From Caldifarciminota bacterium (GTDB lineage: Bacteria; Hydrothermota; Hydrothermia; LBFQ01; DSFT01), in contig JANXBH010000013.1 in NCBI GenBank assembly GCA_025060695.1, positions 1-46,529 on the forward strand: a stretch of 46,529 nt of DNA, written 5' to 3'. Below are positions 3,632-16,391 of the stretch, piece after piece (the first letter of the stretch is position 1; each line of letters starts with the position of its first letter). The notes below the pieces were generated by a model. That model was not told where the DNA came from and did not search any database. It worked only from the letters and a program-made list of their open reading frames with translations. A program made the position numbers and the translations under genes.

Positions 3632-5095
3632 TTATTTTATTTTCTTTATAAGTAATTCTATTCCTTTTGGAATATCACTTGGTTTAAATGTTAATTTATC
3701 AAAAAACTCGCAGCTTCTTGAATGTAAATAACTTGAAATAACTGCTGAGTATATAGGACTAACCTTTTGTGCCAAAAATCCTCCAATAAGGCCACTTAAA
3801 ATATCTCCACTTCCTCCTCTTGCTAACCTTTCATCTCCCCAAATGTTTAAAAATCTATAGTTATTTTGAACTATTACGCTTGGATTTCCTTTTAATAGTA
3901 GCACAGGTTTATATTTCTTTGAAAAGTTCATAGAAACTTCTATTCTTTTTCTGTCTATTTCTTTTGGCTCTTTACTTATAATAAAACTCATTTCTCCGGG
4001 ATGTGGAGTTATAATAGTCTTTTCATCTAATAGTTCAATCTTATCAGAAATTGCCCATATTCCATCTGCATCTATTATCTTTGGAATATTTAGATTCAAA
4101 ACCTCACTCATAAATTGTTTCGTATACTCGTTTCTTGAAATTCCGCTACCTACTACTAAACTATCAAAGTTAAGGTTTTTACTTAGCAAGTCCTCAAAAC
4201 TTCTTCTTGAAAAATATCCATTTTCATCTTCAATAGGAATTACTATACTTTCAGGGACTTTCCCCACTATATACGGGTAAATACTTTTTGGAATTGCACA
4301 ATATATTAAACCTACACCACTTGAAATTGCACCAAAAATATTTAATATTACCGCACCTACATAGTCCTTACTTCCACCAATAATTAAAACTCTTCCCTTA
4401 TCCTTCTTATTCTCATATCCAATATACTTTGGAAGTAAATTTATAACATCATCCTCTTCCAAGTACAAAAACCCCTTATTTTCTAAAAGCTTCTCTTCTA
4501 TTCCAATATCTACTATTTCTACTTTTCCACTATATATCTTACCCTCAAATAGAAAATGTCCAAGTTTTTCACTTGCAAATGTATAAGTAATATCACTTTT
4601 AAATGCTATATTTGAAATTGAACCATCGTCTGCACTTATTCCACTTGGTATATCAAGTGAAATTTTCTTTGCATTACTACTATTTACTATTTCAATACAT
4701 TTATAGTATTTTCCTTCCAATTTTCCCTTAAAGCCTATTCCAAATATTCCATCTACAACAACATCAGCATTTATACTAAATTTCTTTTCATTAAACATTT
4801 CAATTTCAATATCAAAAGCCTTAAGTAGTTCAAAGTTTATCCTTGCTTCATTAGTTTTAATATTTTCATCAAATATTATAACTTTGACATTCTTTTTATA
4901 TTTCTTTAGCCACCTTGCAACTACAAATCCATCTCCTCCATTATTTCCACTACCACAAAGGATTATGAAACTATTACCAAAACTTCTTATATTTTCCGCA
5001 ACTCCTTTTCCTGCATTTTCCATTAAAACAATCTGTGGTATTTTAGAACTATTATCTACTTCCTTCATTTCATAAGAAAATAAAACTCTTTTCAT
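3632..5095 (-). CDS. nnr: Bifunctional NAD(P)H-hydrate repair enzyme (epimerase + dehydratase)
   Basis: A 487-residue fusion of the two NAD(P)HX repair activities. The N-terminal YjeF_N epimerase domain (to about residue 210) has GSGNNGGDGFVVARWL at about 48-63. The C-terminal ADP/ATP-dependent dehydratase domain, of ribokinase-like fold, has VGSGIS, TPHPGEMS and ARGGSGDILSGLIGG around residue 430 with the catalytic aspartate of the GSGD motif. Together they recycle heat- or enzyme-damaged NAD(P)H hydrates. The ATG overlaps the stop of the biotin-carrier gene (ATGA). A weak promoter box is embedded in the last codons of that gene. Confidence 0.93.
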   Translation of the reverse strand: MKRVLFSYEMKEVDNSSKIPQIVLMENAGKGVAENIRSFGNSFIILCGSGNNGGDGFVVARWLKKYKKNVKVIIFDENIKTNEARINFELLKAFDIEIEMFNEKKFSINADVVVDGIFGIGFKGKLEGKYYKCIEIVNSSNAKKISLDIPSGISADDGSISNIAFKSDITYTFASEKLGHFLFEGKIYSGKVEIVDIGIEEKLLENKGFLYLEEDDVINLLPKYIGYENKKDKGRVLIIGGSKDYVGAVILNIFGAISSGVGLIYCAIPKSIYPYIVGKVPESIVIPIEDENGYFSRRSFEDLLSKNLNFDSLVVGSGISRNEYTKQFMSEVLNLNIPKIIDADGIWAISDKIELLDEKTIITPHPGEMSFIISKEPKEIDRKRIEVSMNFSKKYKPVLLLKGNPSVIVQNNYRFLNIWGDERLARGGSGDILSGLIGGFLAQKVSPIYSAVISSYLHSRSCEFFDKLTFKPSDIPKGIELLIKKIK

Positions 5096-5481
5096 ATTTT
5101 AAATTTTAATTTTAATAGTAGTTTTCCTTGACCTACTACTTCACCCTGCTTCACGTGTATTTTTTCTATAGTTGCATCCTTCGGTGCTGTGATAAGCATT
5201 TCCATTTTCATAGATTCTATACTAAGAAGCACATCTCCACTTTTTACTTCATCTCCTTCTTTTACTTTTATACTACTAATTTTTCCTGTAATAGGTGATA
5301 GAATTTCATCTCTATGTTCTATATTACTCTCTATTTCCTCATCTATCTTCTCTATAATGTAAATCCTTGAATTGTAAAATAAAACTATCTTATTACCAAC
5401 TTTTCTATATAAAACATCTAACTTTAGATTTGGATTTGGGCTTACTTCGTAAATATTCCCGTAGTTATCTCTTAGCTTCAT
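5092..5481 (-). CDS. Biotin carboxyl carrier-type protein
   Basis: A small biotinyl-domain protein. The C-terminal 75 residues form a biotinyl/lipoyl domain: LSPITGKISSIKVKEGDEV, then the biotinylation site ESMKMEM, then KQGEVVGQGKLLLKL. The N-terminal 55 residues are beta-rich and not recognised. I take ATG at 5481 (MKLRDNYGN) rather than the TTG at 5505, giving 129 residues and a 17-base overlap with lspA. Such subunits carry carboxybiotin in acyl-CoA or pyruvate carboxylases and in decarboxylases. No biotin carboxylase, carboxyltransferase or biotin ligase gene is in the window, so the partner enzyme is encoded elsewhere. Confidence 0.8.
   Translation of the reverse strand: MKLRDNYGNIYEVSPNPNLKLDVLYRKVGNKIVLFYNSRIYIIEKIDEEIESNIEHRDEILSPITGKISSIKVKEGDEVKSGDVLLSIESMKMEMLITAPKDATIEKIHVKQGEVVGQGKLLLKLKFKI
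5096..5110 (-). promoter_or_regulatory. Possible internal promoter of nnr
   Basis: The last codons of the biotin-carrier gene read ATTAAAATTTAAAAT on the minus strand. The TAAAAT hexamer at 5103-5108 sits 7 bases before the nnr ATG, the same spacing as at other starts. It could be chance, since the codons also encode Lys/Phe/Ile. Confidence 0.35.
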
Positions 5482-5938
5482 TTTTCTTTCTAAAGAAGCT
5501 GTCAAATAATAGAAGTGCTATTGCAATTGTAATAAAGCTGTCAGCTAAATTAAATATAAACCATCTTAAGTTTTCGTTTATTCCAATATCTATAAAATCA
5601 ACAACCATACCCCTAAAAACTCTATCAAATATATTTCCCAAAGCACCACCAATAATTAAAGTATATGCAAAGAAACTTAAATTACTTTTTTCTCTTATGG
5701 CAAGATAGATTACAAATATGGTAATAATAATAGCTAAGAAAAGATATGGGAAGCCTTCTCCAAAATGTAGCCCAAATGCAATTCCGGGATTATATACAAA
5801 TGTAAATCTTAAATACCCATTTATAATCTCTACAGGCTGATAGAGAGGTAAATAGTTTTCTACTAAGAACTTTGAAATTTGGTCAATCAATAGAACGACT
5901 AAGGGTATGAAGACTAAATATAAAATTTTACCTCTCAT
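5465..5938 (-). CDS. lspA: Lipoprotein signal peptidase (signal peptidase II)
   Basis: A 157-residue, four-span inner-membrane aspartyl protease that removes signal peptides from prolipoproteins. The family motifs are present: YNPGIAFG, GGALGNIFDRVFRGMVVDF and FNLADSFI, which place the catalytic aspartates at about D114 and D133. Its start overlaps the stop of the 231-residue membrane gene upstream (ATGA), so it is the fifth gene of the translationally coupled group that starts with the FN3/DUF6754 gene. At least one likely substrate, the LptC-like lipoprotein at 13111, is in the window. Confidence 0.95.
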   Translation of the reverse strand: MRGKILYLVFIPLVVLLIDQISKFLVENYLPLYQPVEIINGYLRFTFVYNPGIAFGLHFGEGFPYLFLAIIITIFVIYLAIREKSNLSFFAYTLIIGGALGNIFDRVFRGMVVDFIDIGINENLRWFIFNLADSFITIAIALLLFDSFFRKKNEAKR

Positions 5939-6630
5939 CTAATTATATTTAACCAATCGCTCAAAAGAAAGTAAAATCTACTAATTAAAAGTGAAAATCT
6001 TGCCATAATAGTATATCCAAAGCTTGCACCAAAAGTTATCATCATTATTATAATACCAAGCTTTGCTATACCTAACAAAACTCCTCTCTGTTCTGTTGAA
6101 AAATAAAAATATACCAATGTAGATATAACACCAAGTAAAATCACAAGTGGTCCAATAGTAAATAACAAGCTTGTAAGAAAATTCAAAGGACTGGATAGAT
6201 CAATCATGTACTCAGGAGAAAGTACTGGTAAAAATGTTGCTAAGGTTTGAGGAAATATAAAACCCTGAATGCTTGCAACAATACTAATACCTGAACCAAT
6301 ACCTACTACAAATGCTATAGGTATTCTTGAAAGCCACACAAGTGAAGGAACAATATATGTAAAAATCTCAAGTCTGATAAGTGTAAGTATTCCCAATAAT
6401 ATTGCAACTACTGTCATAGTTCTAATAAACACATGTTGACTTGGATCTAAACCCATCTGTATGGACGGCCATATTGCTTGGTTTAATGCTAAAATTACAC
6501 CAAAACCTGCGGAAATGCCTACAAATATATGTTCTGCAAACTTATAAATAGGATTATCTCCAAATACAAAAGATAAAATTGCAAGTGTTAAAAATGCAGC
6601 AATCCATATACCAATAACATCCAATATCAT
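5935..6630 (-). CDS. Polytopic membrane protein of the DUF6754-linked operon (231 aa)
   Basis: Not recognised as a named family. The 231-residue protein has about six hydrophobic segments, starting with IWIAAFLTLAILSFVF and ending with a segment near residue 200. Few charged residues lie between them, and no motif of a known transporter or enzyme is visible. It is the last of four membrane genes (8254-9375, 7466-8254, 6627-7469, this one) joined by overlapping stop and start codons, which suggests one membrane complex. An ATGA overlap also couples it to lspA. A conserved amphipathic loop, AEHIFVGISAGFG, follows the first span. Confidence 0.7.
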   Translation of the reverse strand: MILDVIGIWIAAFLTLAILSFVFGDNPIYKFAEHIFVGISAGFGVILALNQAIWPSIQMGLDPSQHVFIRTMTVVAILLGILTLIRLEIFTYIVPSLVWLSRIPIAFVVGIGSGISIVASIQGFIFPQTLATFLPVLSPEYMIDLSSPLNFLTSLLFTIGPLVILLGVISTLVYFYFSTEQRGVLLGIAKLGIIIMMITFGASFGYTIMARFSLLISRFYFLLSDWLNIIR

Positions 6631-7469
6631 CCTAATATCCTCCTTATTATAAAACCGACATTTCCAAGAAGTATAAACACTAAAATTACACTGTGGACCA
6701 CAACCTGCGATATCATAATAAGTGATGCAAGACCTTTACTCTTATTTAAGCTTTCATAATCAAAAGCACCTTTTAGTCCTCCTACAAGTCCAACAATTTG
6801 CTTTGCTTGATAATACGGAAAATATCCGGGTGCCATAACAGCAGTTACTGCAAAAGCCATCTTTACCCCATATCTTGCCTGAACTATCTGAACCCAAGAG
6901 TCTCCGGTTGCACCTGCCTCAAATCCAAAAAGCAAATTTATATCTTTATAGTTTAATACTGTATCGTCCTTTATTAGCTTTTTATATATTTCATAGCTAT
7001 CTATAGGCTTTCCATAATAGTCAGTAGGAAATACTTTTCTAAAATCCTCACTTAAACCAATCATTACGCCTAAAACTCCCGGTTTAAATCCAAGTATTAA
7101 ATAGTCTTTTCCGTATACTTTATTATATCTTTTTGCTACTTTCTCAATAGCATTAATTCCTACTATTAATCCCTCAAATTGCCAATGTGTCATAAGTAAT
7201 ACTTTTACATTTTTCTTAAATGATTGTTCTAATACAACTTCAAGGACAGGTTGAAGCTCAGGATATGCGGATGGACCATAATCTGTAGAAATTAGAATAA
7301 TATCGTCTTCTTTTAGTGATTCTACAGCATTATATGCTTCAATTACTTCTTTTGTTGGACTGGATGGAAGAGTAGGCTTTAAAAATAGTGGAAGAATTAT
7401 TGCGAATATTAAAACCGCATATATAATTCTTCTATCGATAAGTGCTAAGAAATCAAGTATGGCTCTCAT
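6627..7469 (-). CDS. Membrane-anchored soluble-domain protein of the DUF6754-linked operon (280 aa)
   Basis: Function unknown. One hydrophobic segment lies near the N-terminus (about residues 15-30) and one near the C-terminus (about 250-275), enclosing a soluble domain of roughly 210 residues. That domain has alternating strand and helix patterns: IILISTDYGPSAYPEL, KVLLMTHWQFEG, YLILGFKPG and LLFGFEAGATGDSW. The layout, two spans around an alpha/beta domain, parallels the C-terminal part of the DUF6754-type protein encoded two genes upstream, so the two could be distant relatives; I cannot align them by eye with confidence. Start and stop overlap the neighbours by ATGA. Confidence 0.65.
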   Translation of the reverse strand: MRAILDFLALIDRRIIYAVLIFAIILPLFLKPTLPSSPTKEVIEAYNAVESLKEDDIILISTDYGPSAYPELQPVLEVVLEQSFKKNVKVLLMTHWQFEGLIVGINAIEKVAKRYNKVYGKDYLILGFKPGVLGVMIGLSEDFRKVFPTDYYGKPIDSYEIYKKLIKDDTVLNYKDINLLFGFEAGATGDSWVQIVQARYGVKMAFAVTAVMAPGYFPYYQAKQIVGLVGGLKGAFDYESLNKSKGLASLIMISQVVVHSVILVFILLGNVGFIIRRILG

Positions 7470-8254
7470 CTTATATATCCCCTCTCTATACCAAAGATAA
7501 TTCTAAGTGAAAAAGCTATACTTCCAAGTGTAAGACCAAGTATAATCGCTCTTTGACCTGCTGTATTAGGATATTGCATGATCCAGTTAGAAAGTGAAGG
7601 TATAAATTGAGAAAGAAGTTCTGAATAGAAGAAAACACCAATTCCTAAGGATAGAAATAAAATTGCAAGAAAATATCTAAATATTGCATTAAATCCTGTA
7701 TATTTTGTTGCAATATATAAAAAATACGAACCTGCTACTATCATAAATACGAAGAAAAATGGAATAAAAATACTTCCTCCAAATGGAACTCTTCCCATCA
7801 TTACAATTGCTGCTGATATTAAAAGTAGAGATGACTCTAAATTTCTTGCTCTAAATGCTCTATAGGATGCGGATGCTATGAAAAATCCAAGAATTGAAAA
7901 CATAGTTGCATCAAGTGGAAGATATATATTTTGAAATAACCAGAGATAACTTGAATTTGAAATAAATGGTCCTCCATAAGCATACCAAGCCCAAATACCC
8001 CAAAATAGTGCTATAAAAAATGAAATAATTAAAATTAAGCTATATACTGCATCCTTATCTCTTCTTTTTATTTTTCTCCAATGATATAGAATTAAGCTAT
8101 CTATACCTAAAAGTAGTGCAAATCCCGAGATGATAATATACCATCTGGATGTTAGCTGTTCAATTTGTGTAAAAGGTTCTCTTGGAATAAAAAATAAAGC
8201 CATTATAAGAATACCGCTAATAAAGGTAACAATTACAGGAATTTGAGTTTGCAT
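7466..8254 (-). CDS. Polytopic membrane protein of the DUF6754-linked operon (262 aa)
   Basis: A hydrophobic 262-residue protein with about seven or eight predicted spans, for example VIVTFISGILIMALFFI, LILIISFFIALFWGIWAW and FFVFMIVAGSYFLYIA. No catalytic or transport motif was recognised. The gene has a strong ribosome site, AGGAGG at 8261-8266, six bases before its ATG, and overlaps the previous stop by one base (TAATG). Short, tightly linked and of a similar size to the 231-residue protein, it looks like a membrane scaffold or channel subunit of the complex suggested for this operon. That role is an inference. Confidence 0.65.
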   Translation of the reverse strand: MQTQIPVIVTFISGILIMALFFIPREPFTQIEQLTSRWYIIISGFALLLGIDSLILYHWRKIKRRDKDAVYSLILIISFFIALFWGIWAWYAYGGPFISNSSYLWLFQNIYLPLDATMFSILGFFIASASYRAFRARNLESSLLLISAAIVMMGRVPFGGSIFIPFFFVFMIVAGSYFLYIATKYTGFNAIFRYFLAILFLSLGIGVFFYSELLSQFIPSLSNWIMQYPNTAGQRAIILGLTLGSIAFSLRIIFGIERGYIR

Positions 8255-9375
8255 TATTCACCTCCTACCTTAAACAGATTAAAGTACAAATCCTTTAACT
8301 CAGTAAAAACACCAAAGCTTGAGGTTGTAGCAAGTATAGCACCAATTATTATAAATACGATAAGCAGGACTTTTGCTATATCTTCGGATTTTATAGTTCC
8401 AATTTCAGAAGGATTTTTACTTAAATATGCGGATGCTGCATATAGTTCTTCACCAATTAGGGTATAGTCGCAAGAGACTATGAAAAATGGAAGTTGTGTA
8501 ACCGCGGTAGTTCCTGCTATATTTATGGAACCTACATTATATGAAGTTTCTGCCATTAACAAGCTTTCAGCATAAAAATAACCCTGATAGAATGCTGCAC
8601 CCGGTTTTTCTCTTACAACTATACCATTAAAACCTGCTGCAAACCCGAACTGCTGAGTAGTCAAAAACATTATATTTTCTTCTTTATATAAATCTGGTCT
8701 TCCTGATTCAGTATAACCTTCCTTTACTGCTTCCCTTGATGCAAGCATTATAAGAGGGTCATTATTGGGAACTATTAAGTCTATACCATAGCCTGCTACC
8801 CTCTTCGCAACGTATTTTAATATTGCTATACCTCCGATAATGGCAGGGTCGCTTAGCGCTCCAATTCCTGTTGTATAAATTATGGGTCTTCCCATTTCGG
8901 TTGCTCTACCTACTGCATCGTCAATTGCTTCAAGTCCTGCAATCTTTCTAATATATGGCACATTCCCAAGTCTTGAAGAATAATAAAAGAAAAAGAACAA
9001 CCCACCAAAAATTATTAAAAATACAAGAACAGGAAGTTTCCTTATATCAAACCAAGGCTTTTTTTCTTGAATTTCTATTTTAACTAAAACTACATTTGAC
9101 CAATCCGTATCTGTATAAGTCGTATCATTTACATATGCTCTAACAAGATAGCTATAATTAACATTTGCTCTTACAAGTGTATCTATAAAATAATTCTCAT
9201 TAGTTTGACCTATTAACTCTGGTTCTTCTTTTGAAAAATTATCACTTGCTCTATATATTTCATACTTTAATATAGGGACTTTCGGATGTTTCCAATTTAA
9301 GATAACTTTGTTGTTTTCAACTTTAACTACTAAACTTTCTGCAGGTAAAGGCGTATTAAATACAACAAAGAGCAT
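8254..9375 (-). CDS. FN3-domain plus DUF6754-type membrane protein (373 aa)
   Basis: A short hydrophobic N-terminus (MLFVVFNTPLPAES) is followed by a fibronectin type III-like domain at about residues 15-105 (VILNWKHP, KYEIYRAS, YSYLVRAY). Next come a membrane span at about 113-132 and a soluble domain of about 200 residues rich in small residues (GRPIIYTTGIGALSDPA, IDLIVPNND, NIAGTTAVTQ), then a final span at about 338-358. I recall this arrangement as DUF6754, a family without known function. The predicted topology puts the FN3 domain outside and the larger domain in the cytoplasm. It is the first of four coupled membrane genes and lies 6 bases after lpxH. Confidence 0.7.
   Translation of the reverse strand: MLFVVFNTPLPAESLVVKVENNKVILNWKHPKVPILKYEIYRASDNFSKEEPELIGQTNENYFIDTLVRANVNYSYLVRAYVNDTTYTDTDWSNVVLVKIEIQEKKPWFDIRKLPVLVFLIIFGGLFFFFYYSSRLGNVPYIRKIAGLEAIDDAVGRATEMGRPIIYTTGIGALSDPAIIGGIAILKYVAKRVAGYGIDLIVPNNDPLIMLASREAVKEGYTESGRPDLYKEENIMFLTTQQFGFAAGFNGIVVREKPGAAFYQGYFYAESLLMAETSYNVGSINIAGTTAVTQLPFFIVSCDYTLIGEELYAASAYLSKNPSEIGTIKSEDIAKVLLIVFIIIGAILATTSSFGVFTELKDLYFNLFKVGGE
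8261..8266 (-). promoter_or_regulatory. Ribosome binding site of the 262-aa membrane gene
   Basis: AGGAGG on the minus strand, six bases before ATG 8254 and inside the 3' end of the FN3/DUF6754 gene. It is a textbook Shine-Dalgarno site, in contrast with the operon-leading genes, which have none. Confidence 0.7.
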
Positions 9376-13114: not shown

Positions 13115-13623
13115 GATTTATAATTCTTATATTTTTCATAGCTTGCACTAAAAAGGTAGAAAATAAGTTAGATGAGAATATTATAAGCTATGTGCAAAAA
13201 GTTGATACAGGTAATATTTTTGAATACGAAAATAGTGAAAAAACTTGGGAGATAGAAGCTGATAAAATTGTTGACTTAAATAATATTTATGTAGTAAAGA
13301 ACTTTAAGATAAAGTTTTACGATAATGGACAAGTTTCCGCAATATTAACTGCTGACTCAGGTATAATGGAAAAAAGTACAAAAAATATGAAAGCTTTCGG
13401 GAATGTGGTTTTTCTATCAAGTGATAGTTCATTTTTAAAAACAGGAAGATTATATTGGCAGGATGCATATAGGAAAATTCATACTGATGATAGTGTATAT
13501 ATATACGACGCAAAGAACAAAAGGGAGTTATGGGGTATAGGTTTTGAAAGTGATGATAGATTTAAAAATATTAGGATATTGAAAAATGTTAGGGGAAGAG
13601 GAGAAGGAAAGGTTATTAAATGA
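13111..13623 (+). CDS. lptC: LptC-like LPS export lipoprotein
   Basis: A 170-residue protein with a short lipoprotein signal ending in the lipobox FFIAC (Cys12). A beta-rich repeat domain resembles LptC/OstA: WEIEADKIVDLNNIYVVKNF, KFYDNGQVSAILTADSG, MKAFGNVVFLSSDSSFLKT and LYWQDAYRKIHTDDSVYIYD. LptC is anchored in the inner membrane and passes LPS from the LptBFG transporter to LptA. Classical LptC has a transmembrane anchor, and lipid-anchored versions occur in other phyla. The start overlaps the fabH stop (ATGA). No other lpt gene is in the window. Confidence 0.72.
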   Translation: MRFIILIFFIACTKKVENKLDENIISYVQKVDTGNIFEYENSEKTWEIEADKIVDLNNIYVVKNFKIKFYDNGQVSAILTADSGIMEKSTKNMKAFGNVVFLSSDSSFLKTGRLYWQDAYRKIHTDDSVYIYDAKNKRELWGIGFESDDRFKNIRILKNVRGRGEGKVIK

Positions 13624-13849
13624 AGTAGCTAACCGTATAGTAAAAATGAGACTTTCTGATGTTGCAATATTTTTATTAGAAAGTTCAAAACCTATATCAT
13701 TTTTATCATCTCAATTTTTAATATTCTTAAGACCTTTTATTAGTGTATATTTTAGCCCCCAAACATATGACAAACTCATTGAGATTTTAAATGATAGAAA
13801 CAATATAGAGAAACTTATAAAACTTATAGAAGAAAAGGAGGGTAGGTAA
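13586..13849 (+). CDS. Small conserved-looking protein of unknown function (87 aa)
   Basis: Not recognised by name. The 87 residues read as mostly helical: a charged start (MLGEEEKERLLNEVANRIV), a more hydrophobic middle (SDVAIFLLESSKPISFLSSQ, FLRPFISVYF) and a charged end (RNNIEKLIKLIEEKEGR). The middle could associate with the membrane peripherally. The start overlaps the lptC-like gene by 38 bases in another frame, and the stop overlaps the next start (TAATG), so the gene is embedded in the fabH operon. I recall similar short proteins in other thermophilic bacteria but cannot name a family. Confidence 0.6.
   Translation: MLGEEEKERLLNEVANRIVKMRLSDVAIFLLESSKPISFLSSQFLIFLRPFISVYFSPQTYDKLIEILNDRNNIEKLIKLIEEKEGR
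13836..13841 (+). promoter_or_regulatory. Ribosome binding site of the 367-aa gene
   Basis: AGGAGG seven bases before ATG 13849, inside the 3' end of the 87-residue gene. It supports the start of the next gene, which would otherwise be uncertain. Confidence 0.65.
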
Positions 13850-14952
13850 TGCTGATATTTATCTTATCTCAAAGTGAGATACTATATAATATACAGATTA
13901 TATCAAGTTATGATAAAAATAAGGAGGTTTCTCTCAGAACGCCTTTTAGTATAAATAAAGCTTCAGTTGATAGAAGAGTTTACTATAGAATAGATACAAC
14001 TGTAAATAGTCTTGAGAATATTGATATTTTGATATTTGATAAAAAGACAAAGAAGGAAAAAATAATTCCTTTGCCTAAGTTTTTAGAACCAAAATACTTG
14101 GATATATCATTAGGTGAAACACTAAAGGTATCATTTAATTTCCTTGGCTTTCCCATTAGTGAGTTTGAATTTCCAAGGGTATATATAATATCTGACCAAG
14201 GAGAGAGTGAAGCTTTTTTATTACAGCAAGATCCATATAATAAGGAGGTTTTAGTACGTAAATTAGAACCTATTGATGAAATTGGAAATTATAAGCTAGC
14301 TCTTGTTATCAATCATCCAAGACAATTAATAGAGATTAGGATTTATAGAATATTGAACGTTGTTTATAAACCTATCTATAAACTTTTTGAAATGAGTTAT
14401 GGATTTTCAGGACAGGCTGCTTATTTATGCTTACAGATATTAAATAAACTACCTAATACAATTTCAGAAGAATATAATGTACTAATCTTAGATGCTTCTA
14501 ATATACCTATTAGTATGAAGTTGAGAAACTATGGCAATTATTCCTGTGGTATTTTTACACCTAATTCAGCAGGTAATTATACAGCAAAATTAGAAGGCAG
14601 ATATAAGGGTGTAATTTCTTCAAAAGTCGTAGAGTTTAATATTATTGATTCTATTAATTTTGAGATACCGATAAAATTTGTAGGATTTGAACTAAAGAAG
14701 AATAAGGGATTTATAAAACTTGAAAATATGAGCAATAGACCTATAGTATTGAGTATAGAAGCAGTTGAAGCACCACCCGAGATAAATTTTAATATATCAG
14801 GCTCTTATACAATATCAAAAAACACTATTATTCCATTTGAATATAAGTTTCTTAAGAAGGTCAAGAAGAATTCAAACCATTACATAAGAATTAAGTTTAG
14901 GGATGAAAACAATAGACCGTTCTTTTTGGATATTAAACTTTCAGTCTTGTAA
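13849..14952 (+). CDS. Beta-rich secreted or surface protein of unknown function (367 aa)
   Basis: No family recognised. The N-terminus is weakly hydrophobic (MLIFILSQSEILYNIQII), possibly a short signal peptide without an obvious cleavage site. The remainder is strand-rich with few helices and is repeatedly punctuated by segments such as FEFPRVYIISDQGESEAF, IGNYKLALVIN and AGNYTAKLEGRYKG, which look like Ig-like beta-sandwich modules. The C-terminal third reads like an accessory beta domain (FIKLENMSNRPIVLSIEA). It has a strong ribosome site and is the last gene before a 77-bp space, so it probably ends the fabH operon. An extracytoplasmic location is inferred from composition. Confidence 0.6.
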   Translation: MLIFILSQSEILYNIQIISSYDKNKEVSLRTPFSINKASVDRRVYYRIDTTVNSLENIDILIFDKKTKKEKIIPLPKFLEPKYLDISLGETLKVSFNFLGFPISEFEFPRVYIISDQGESEAFLLQQDPYNKEVLVRKLEPIDEIGNYKLALVINHPRQLIEIRIYRILNVVYKPIYKLFEMSYGFSGQAAYLCLQILNKLPNTISEEYNVLILDASNIPISMKLRNYGNYSCGIFTPNSAGNYTAKLEGRYKGVISSKVVEFNIIDSINFEIPIKFVGFELKKNKGFIKLENMSNRPIVLSIEAVEAPPEINFNISGSYTISKNTIIPFEYKFLKKVKKNSNHYIRIKFRDENNRPFFLDIKLSVL

Positions 14953-15029: not shown

Positions 15030-16391
15030 ATGAAATCTGATTTTCAATCTGTTATTTTTAATGCTATAAAAACTAAGTTTACAGGGAGATTGATTTTTGT
15101 TAGACCTGAGGGTGGAGTAGTAAGGGTTCTATTCGTAGAGGGTAAAATCAAAGATGTTGATAGTACTTGGGGTTATGGTTCAAAAGAATTAGAAAGAATA
15201 AGAGAGTGGCAAGAGAGTAGTGTTATAACTAAGGAAATTAGCGAAAAAGAGTTAGAAAAATATAGAGTATTACCTGATATAGTATTTAAATTTACTTGTC
15301 CCGATTGTGGTCATGAAATTCCTATAGATGTAAATTTTTGTCCTGAGTGTGGTTATCAAATAAGAAATGTAAAAGTGTGTTTAAATTGTGGTTTTGAAAA
15401 TCCATCTGATGCTAAATTTTGTGAAAAATGTGGCAATAAATTTTATTTAGAACAGATTACGAAAAATATCAAGATATGTCCAAATTGTTCAAGTTCCATT
15501 CAAAAAGATGCAAAGTTTTGTCCTGAGTGTGGTCATTCATTTCTGAAAATATGTCCAAGATGTAAAAGTGAAAATCAACCTAATGTAAAATTCTGTGAAG
15601 AGTGTGGTTATGAGTTTAAATCTGATAAGCTAAAGTTTAGTAGAGTTTTAATACCAACTTTTATCTTGACTTTTTTCATTCTGATTTTAGGAGGTATATT
15701 TATGTTTTCTTCTGATACGAAAACAAAAGTATTACAAGCTCCTAATGTTATTCAGGAATTTGTAACTTTTAATAATGAAAAAGATACATCTAAAATTTCA
15801 AATCAAAAAACCGAACAAACTACTAAAATAACAAAAAAGGAAGAAGTAAAAAAGCAAATAGATACATCACAAATTATTGAACAAAAGATAGAGAAAAAAA
15901 TTGCATTTTTTAAGTGTGAAACTGAAAGCCTTTTATACTATGATTTAAAGATAAAGTCTGTAAGTTTTGATTTTTCAAAACCACAAAATTTACCATATTA
16001 TAAGCAAGGTCCTATAAGTTTAGACAAGTTTGATACATTGATTGTAGATTTTGAGTCTTTGGCTGGTCTTTTAAGAAGTAGAAATGCTATTTTACTTGTA
16101 GTAAGTAATGATAAATTATCGTATTTAGATACTCATTTTTTTACTCAAAATACGGAAAATTTTGAAGCATTCGTAAAAAATGGTTTTAACTTACCGTTTC
16201 CTAAGAGCTATGTAAGGTCGAAAGGAAGGATAGTTTTTAGTTCAAGCAAGCGAGATGAATATTACATTGTAGTTATAAATGAACCTTATTTAGAAAAGGA
16301 AACAAATAAACTGTATTTAAAAACAAAAACCTTGGTTTTTAATTTAAAAATAAAAATAAAAAGATGTTTTGAAAATAAAAATGTTCAGTGA
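15030..16391 (+). CDS. Membrane protein with N-terminal DUF4388-like domain and four zinc ribbons
   Basis: A 453-residue protein of unknown function with a clear domain order. Residues 1-60 resemble a DUF4388/PATAN-type domain (FTGRLIFVRPEGGVVRVLF). Four zinc ribbons follow, each CxxC-x10-12-CxxC, at about 90-108, 117-134, 150-167 and 175-192. A membrane span lies at about 206-227, then a low-complexity Lys/Thr/Glu linker and a beta-rich C-terminal domain that should be extracytoplasmic. The ribbons would be cytoplasmic. Relatives of such domains occur in bacterial signalling proteins, so an inside-out sensor or scaffold is conceivable. It is coupled to the next gene by a GTGA overlap. Confidence 0.7.
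   Translation: MKSDFQSVIFNAIKTKFTGRLIFVRPEGGVVRVLFVEGKIKDVDSTWGYGSKELERIREWQESSVITKEISEKELEKYRVLPDIVFKFTCPDCGHEIPIDVNFCPECGYQIRNVKVCLNCGFENPSDAKFCEKCGNKFYLEQITKNIKICPNCSSSIQKDAKFCPECGHSFLKICPRCKSENQPNVKFCEECGYEFKSDKLKFSRVLIPTFILTFFILILGGIFMFSSDTKTKVLQAPNVIQEFVTFNNEKDTSKISNQKTEQTTKITKKEEVKKQIDTSQIIEQKIEKKIAFFKCETESLLYYDLKIKSVSFDFSKPQNLPYYKQGPISLDKFDTLIVDFESLAGLLRSRNAILLVVSNDKLSYLDTHFFTQNTENFEAFVKNGFNLPFPKSYVRSKGRIVFSSSKRDEYYIVVINEPYLEKETNKLYLKTKTLVFNLKIKIKRCFENKNVQ

Follow-up and report, generated by a model that had tools for sequence, protein, structure and literature searches.

Four coupled membrane-protein genes

The window analysed here is a whole stretch of 46,529 nucleotides (nt) from a Caldifarciminota bacterium (assembly GCA_025060695.1, contig JANXBH010000013.1, positions 1 to 46,529 of the forward strand), whose phylum is the candidate division WOR-3, now Caldifarciminota at NCBI. 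On the minus strand at 5935-9375 it carries four coupled genes for membrane proteins, designated A (DUF6754), B, C, and D, which are considered together with three further partners, designated S, E, and F. Because the gene order is kept, the quartet duplicates as a unit, and it co-occurs nearly one to one with F and E, the seven genes very probably constitute one functional system.

The four open reading frames (ORFs) lie at the coordinates and have the lengths given in the original prediction. Gene A (8254..9375, minus strand) encodes a 373 amino acid (aa) protein with an N-terminal FN3-like domain, a transmembrane (TM) span, the DUF6754 alpha/beta domain, and a second TM span, followed by B (7466..8254, minus strand), a 262 aa polytopic membrane protein with 114 homologues that nearly always stands directly after A. 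Gene C (6627..7469, minus strand; 108 homologues) encodes a 280 aa protein with a Rossmann-like alpha/beta domain between two TM spans and D (5935..6630, minus strand; 104 homologues), directly after C, a 231 aa polytopic membrane protein. The junctions also agree with the earlier description, A and B overlapping by 1 nt (TAATG) and both B/C and C/D by 4 nt (ATGA).

Conservation of the order was assessed by searching all ORFs of sampled regions (40 within the phylum and 60 in other lineages) with iterated profiles. Complete, ordered A-B-C-D quartets numbered 101 and were spread over 85 of 101 loci, with overlaps between B and C in 65 and between C and D in 60 of the 101 quartets and a median gap of -4 nt at both junctions. 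The four-gene order across phyla, a check named with the original prediction, is thus kept in the phylum and in many other bacterial lineages. Two or three quartets stand in tandem in several loci (e.g., L034, L035, L038, L050, L074, L079, L086, and L105), the tandem copies being about equally diverged in all four proteins, and inter-quartet distances correlate among the four proteins (Mantel r 0.65-0.82 vs. a permutation maximum of 0.24). Quartets therefore duplicate and evolve as units. One further locus (L132, G267:C38) contains a quartet followed by three extra tandem copies of C lacking A, B, or D.

Partner genes and distribution

The genes S, E, and F, whose products are about 90-150, 600, and 374 aa long, respectively, recur upstream of A in numerous lineages outside the phylum and, within it, at L035 and L050. 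E shares a locus with the quartet in 21 cases, F does so in 24, and S in 25 as well as in the window, and the order S-E-F-A-B-C-D is adjacent in about 20 loci. All seven components are present in the genome from which the window derives: S is encoded within the window, E on contig C9 (E-value 2e-287), and F on contig C77 (E-value 6e-153). In the window, S (13586..13849, plus strand) encodes an 87 aa small helical protein that was identified by hidden Markov model (E-value 2.8e-34), aligns with 23 homologues, matched no family in the Pfam search, and belongs to a separate gene run between an lptC-like gene and a gene for a probable exported protein.

E is a member of Pfam MutL (PF13941; 445 bits, E-value 3e-133 for the own-genome copy) and carries the ASKHA phosphate-1, phosphate-2, and adenosine motifs (DCGSTTTK, GVDIGGATTD, and GSGGVLSH), which are conserved in the alignment. 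F, which forms a separate family of 370 aa proteins with a conserved middle domain, appears barrel-sandwich/KOW-like: weak barrel-sandwich matches cover its first half and an equally sub-threshold, weak KOW match its C-terminus. In other phyla, S is often preceded by a gene, T, for a protein of about 150 aa with two hydrophobic spans and then a domain that is PH-like by eye (directly upstream of S in L076, L087, L090, L094, L095, L100, L102, L105, L117, and L118). T had no Pfam match, was found in none of the phylum loci read, and is possibly an eighth component.

Of the 147 genomes of the phylum, 140 carried PF20539 (one to seven copies each), 139 carried F, and nearly all carried E. Outside it, PF20539 was found in 63 of 243 sampled genomes and in 0 of 14 well-known control genomes. 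Of the 243 genomes, 60 held both A and F, 3 held A without F, none held F without A, and 180 held neither (phi 0.968, with a lone F match at 4e-4 treated as noise). Both A and E were held by 55, A without E by 8, and E without A by 1 (phi 0.903), E being counted as present at an E-value under 1e-100. The number of quartets per genome ranged from one to seven, yet there was usually one E and one F, as in G083 and G088 with seven A, one F, and one E each. That several quartets share a single E/F points to a common actuator or assembly factor. A, C, E, and F are all absent from genus g67 of the phylum (G126 and G127; 94-95% complete), where the complete system seems to have been lost naturally.

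Omp85 occurred in 374 of 390 genomes, leaving little power to test a tie to the outer membrane; genus g139, represented by two genomes with a divergent A, is without Omp85. A mobile origin received no support, as no relative was found in viral contigs or plasmids, and a role as a defence system had no PADLOC match.

Subunit features and gene neighbours

A is a clear DUF6754 protein, as originally proposed (PF20539, 340.5 bits against a gathering score of 27, E-value 6.3e-102). For the FN3 domain attributed to its N-terminus, the fn3 profile remained sub-threshold (19 bits vs. a cut-off of 25, E-value 0.0017), but a solved FN3-like protein was matched (E-value 9e-4) and the region was modelled as a beta sandwich with a predicted local distance difference test score (pLDDT) of about 80-89. 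The two TM spans of A lie at about 114-132 and 333-351, the N-terminal FN3-like domain being predicted outside. Positive-inside counts over 120 homologues gave 3.6 Lys/Arg following the first span of A vs. 1.7 preceding it, and the conserved DUF6754 domain of A is consequently predicted to be cytosolic. For C (107 homologues), Lys/Arg counts of 2.6 ahead of the first span, 1.3 behind it, and 3.5 beyond the last one place the Rossmann-like domain, by prediction, on the extracytoplasmic side.

The N-terminus of A is variable, only 3 of 42 members from other phyla having a recognisable FN3 and some lacking the region, and homologues range from 258 to 943 aa around a highly conserved cytosolic domain. 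Invariant residues, called over more than 100 homologues, include the charged R143, R157, E160, R255, E270, E276, D303, E310, D332, and K335 in A and E71, D122, Q224, Y238, and E239 in C. B has about seven predicted spans in the window copy, with shorter forms of about 205 aa elsewhere, and a conserved IASAxYRAFRAR motif, and D has about six predicted spans and a conserved C-terminal FGASFGYTxMARxSLLIGR. Pfam and NCBIfam searches returned no family for B, C, or D, and D had no PDB match. The earlier statement that no transporter motif explains the unit agrees with these searches, in which A-D matched no known transporter or secretion family. Two second copies of A (G388:C3:6234-6926 and G252:C102:6718-7410) each contain one in-frame TGA.

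Structure models were drawn from three sequences per protein (the window, L032, and L033), and among A-D a usable fold model was obtained from C alone. The AF2 model of C has a Rossmann-like domain between long helices (mean pLDDT 64.7, predicted template modelling score 0.60), and its fold search of solved structures gave general Rossmann-like matches at background level (best Z 8.4). The suggestion that A and C are paralogues was not borne out: the hhalign probability was 1.7% with 36 and 44 sequences and 1.1% with more than 100 each, and a common origin was rejected given these low probabilities and soluble domains predicted on opposite sides of the membrane. Homology between B and D was likewise unsupported by profile-profile comparison.

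The quartet is flanked by lspA, which D overlaps by 4 nt (Peptidase_A8, E-value 9e-37), and by an LpxH-like metallophosphoesterase gene confirmed by Pfam search, separated from A by a 6-base gap. Both neighbours had been named earlier as envelope-biogenesis genes. However, lspA adjoins the quartet in only six loci and the LpxH-like gene only within the same genus, so that this local context says little about function. The end of lspA is overlapped by a biotin carboxyl carrier-like gene (5092-5505, minus strand; Biotin_lipoyl E-value 7e-18, ESMKMEM motif), which is transcribed in the same direction as A-D. A functional tie of the quartet to lpxH, lspA, this carrier gene, or other local neighbours was rejected as the neighbours differ from genus to genus.

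Downstream of S in the window, and overlapping it by 1 base, lies the gene for the 367 aa probable exported protein (13849-14952, plus strand; no Pfam family), and beyond it one for a 453 aa protein (15030-16391, plus strand) with several zinc ribbons and a start that is DUF4388-like by eye but had no Pfam match, and then one hydrophobic span. In four other loci of the phylum, D is followed by a five-gene cassette for a DUF4388 protein, two roadblock-like or unknown proteins, and two small membrane proteins (L036:9364-12221, L037:12422-15267, L047:12140-15108, and L050:86-3158).

Proposed organisation and comparison with known systems

The original prediction of a membrane complex of A, B, C, and D is strengthened by the order kept across phyla, the co-evolution of the four proteins, and their duplication as a unit, but the proposed set was incomplete since S, E, and F also belong to it. 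Judged from these sequence patterns, the four proteins probably assemble into one physical inner-membrane complex. The best explanation, at about an even chance, is that A-B-C-D form the membrane part of an undescribed seven-component system, S-E-F-A-B-C-D, served by a shared ATPase/adaptor module. B and D would be the membrane core of the complex, with the conserved domain of A facing the cytosol and the Rossmann-like domain of C and the variable N-terminus of A facing outwards. Less certainly, E may bind or hydrolyse ATP and, with F as adaptor, could drive, reset, or assemble the complex via the cytosolic domain of A, with S as a putative part of the ATP-binding module alongside E and F. A conformational change might then be passed across the membrane to C. 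The outer face formed by C and the variable head of A would act on some target in the envelope. ATP-linked actuation or assembly by E/F is plausible at slightly under even confidence, and the occurrence of several quartets with differing outer parts per one E/F fits a shared ATP module for several membrane units. A more tentative extension is a trans-membrane machine driven by ATP and made up of seven to eight proteins, in which a shared cytosolic E-F-S module would power one to seven quartets per cell with differing outer parts and hence differing targets; such a machine would be present across a large proportion of bacterial lineages and in none of the 14 control genomes.

Several points weigh against this seven-component explanation. 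In eight A-carrying genomes E is missing or only GlmL-like, and it may therefore not be essential everywhere. The 243 sampled genomes are not fully independent of one another, so that p-values for the co-occurrence are not to be read at face value, and nearly all of them are diderm. In the order-mate family f2, only A and B remain neighbours, C being encoded at another place in the genome. TM counts derive from a simple hydropathy scan, the model of A is good for the FN3 part only, with the cytosolic domain mostly below a pLDDT of 40 and unreadable, and the ATPase activity of E, as a putative GlmL/MutL-like ASKHA ATPase, is inferred from its motifs.

The main rivals are a signalling complex and a membrane-bound enzyme, both of which are considered unlikely. 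In the former, the outer parts (the N-terminus of A and C) would sense the state of the envelope and the cytosolic domain of A would relay it to S/E/F or to DUF4388-type partners, with E as a nucleotide switch and not a motor. Such a role is suggested by the variable N-terminus of A against its highly conserved cytosolic domain, by the 11 loci that have DUF4388 genes close to the quartet, and by the DUF4388 and roadblock-like cassette that directly follows D in L036, L037, and L047 and lies 0.7 kb after it in L050. However, most loci are without DUF4388 genes, no kinase, cyclase, or response-regulator gene recurs among the flanking families, and polytopic B and D with many invariant residues exceed the needs of a sensor.

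A membrane-bound enzyme, a similarly improbable reading, would have the cytosolic domain of A and/or the outer domain of C acting on a lipid-linked or envelope substrate, with E reactivating it as GlmL/EutA-type proteins do for B12 enzymes. The many invariant charged residues of A, the five invariant residues of C, and the nearest named relatives of E, which are accessory proteins of B12-dependent mutases, are consistent with this role, but no cofactor motif was recognised, the fold search yielded background Rossmann-like matches only, and no known enzyme family was identified by sequence.

A plain operon, in which unrelated membrane proteins are grouped for the sake of expression and form no complex, would accommodate the separation of C from A-B in family f2, but is very unlikely given the strict order over deep divergence (30-50% identity), the unit duplication, co-evolution, and joint loss, and the near one-to-one co-occurrence with the unlinked F. 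Least probable is that E is a plain GlmL chaperone of a B12-dependent aminomutase with an incidental tie to A-B-C-D, which its membership of Pfam MutL and its best NCBIfam matches (GlmL and ornithine Or-4) might suggest but which is strongly disfavoured by scores below all three NCBIfam cut-offs (248 bits vs. the equivalog cut-off of 475 for GlmL NF040745, with 244/600 and 185/204 for the others) and by the lack of methylaspartate mutase E (PF06368) above cut-off in all 147 phylum genomes (0/147), where E is near-universal, while E adjoins F-A-B-C-D in about 20 loci.

No described system matched the seven-component set, although an earlier description may have been missed. Among the papers searched, none names DUF6754, PF20539, PF13941, or IPR046642, searches with broader terms yielded no relevant paper, and no earlier tie of B, C, D, S, E, or F to DUF6754 was found. 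Among the membrane parts, A alone bears even a label, that of a domain of unknown function (DUF6754, PF20539). A set of seven genes that is near-universal in one phylum and present in about a quarter of other genomes likely has an important job, and seven separate "hypothetical proteins" become one testable unit with a candidate ATPase, a predicted topology, carriers, and natural losses (genus g67).

Partial likenesses to known systems were identified for the individual components. Along most of its length, E shares its ASKHA ATPase domain with GlmL/MutL (PF13941; NF040745, NF040744, and TIGR01319) but differs in its size of about 600 aa vs. 450-460 and in its partner genes, which are a membrane quartet and not an aminomutase. 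The likeness of F to the RnfC N-terminal domain, biotin/lipoyl carriers, and NusG/Spt5 KOW domains is weak and sub-cut-off; its membership of Rnf/Nqr was not supported, as RnfC_N scored 17.5 bits vs. 25.6 in one homologue and neither RnfC_N nor NQRA_N matched the own-genome F. In the PilM-PilN-PilO, GspL, and MreB-MreC-MreD systems, a cytosolic ASKHA protein is joined to inner-membrane subunits. No Pfam or NCBIfam match linked A-D to the PilM, GspL, or MreB-complex families, and what the seven-component system shares with them, in outline only, is the general plan of an actin-like/ASKHA protein with polytopic and singly anchored membrane proteins.

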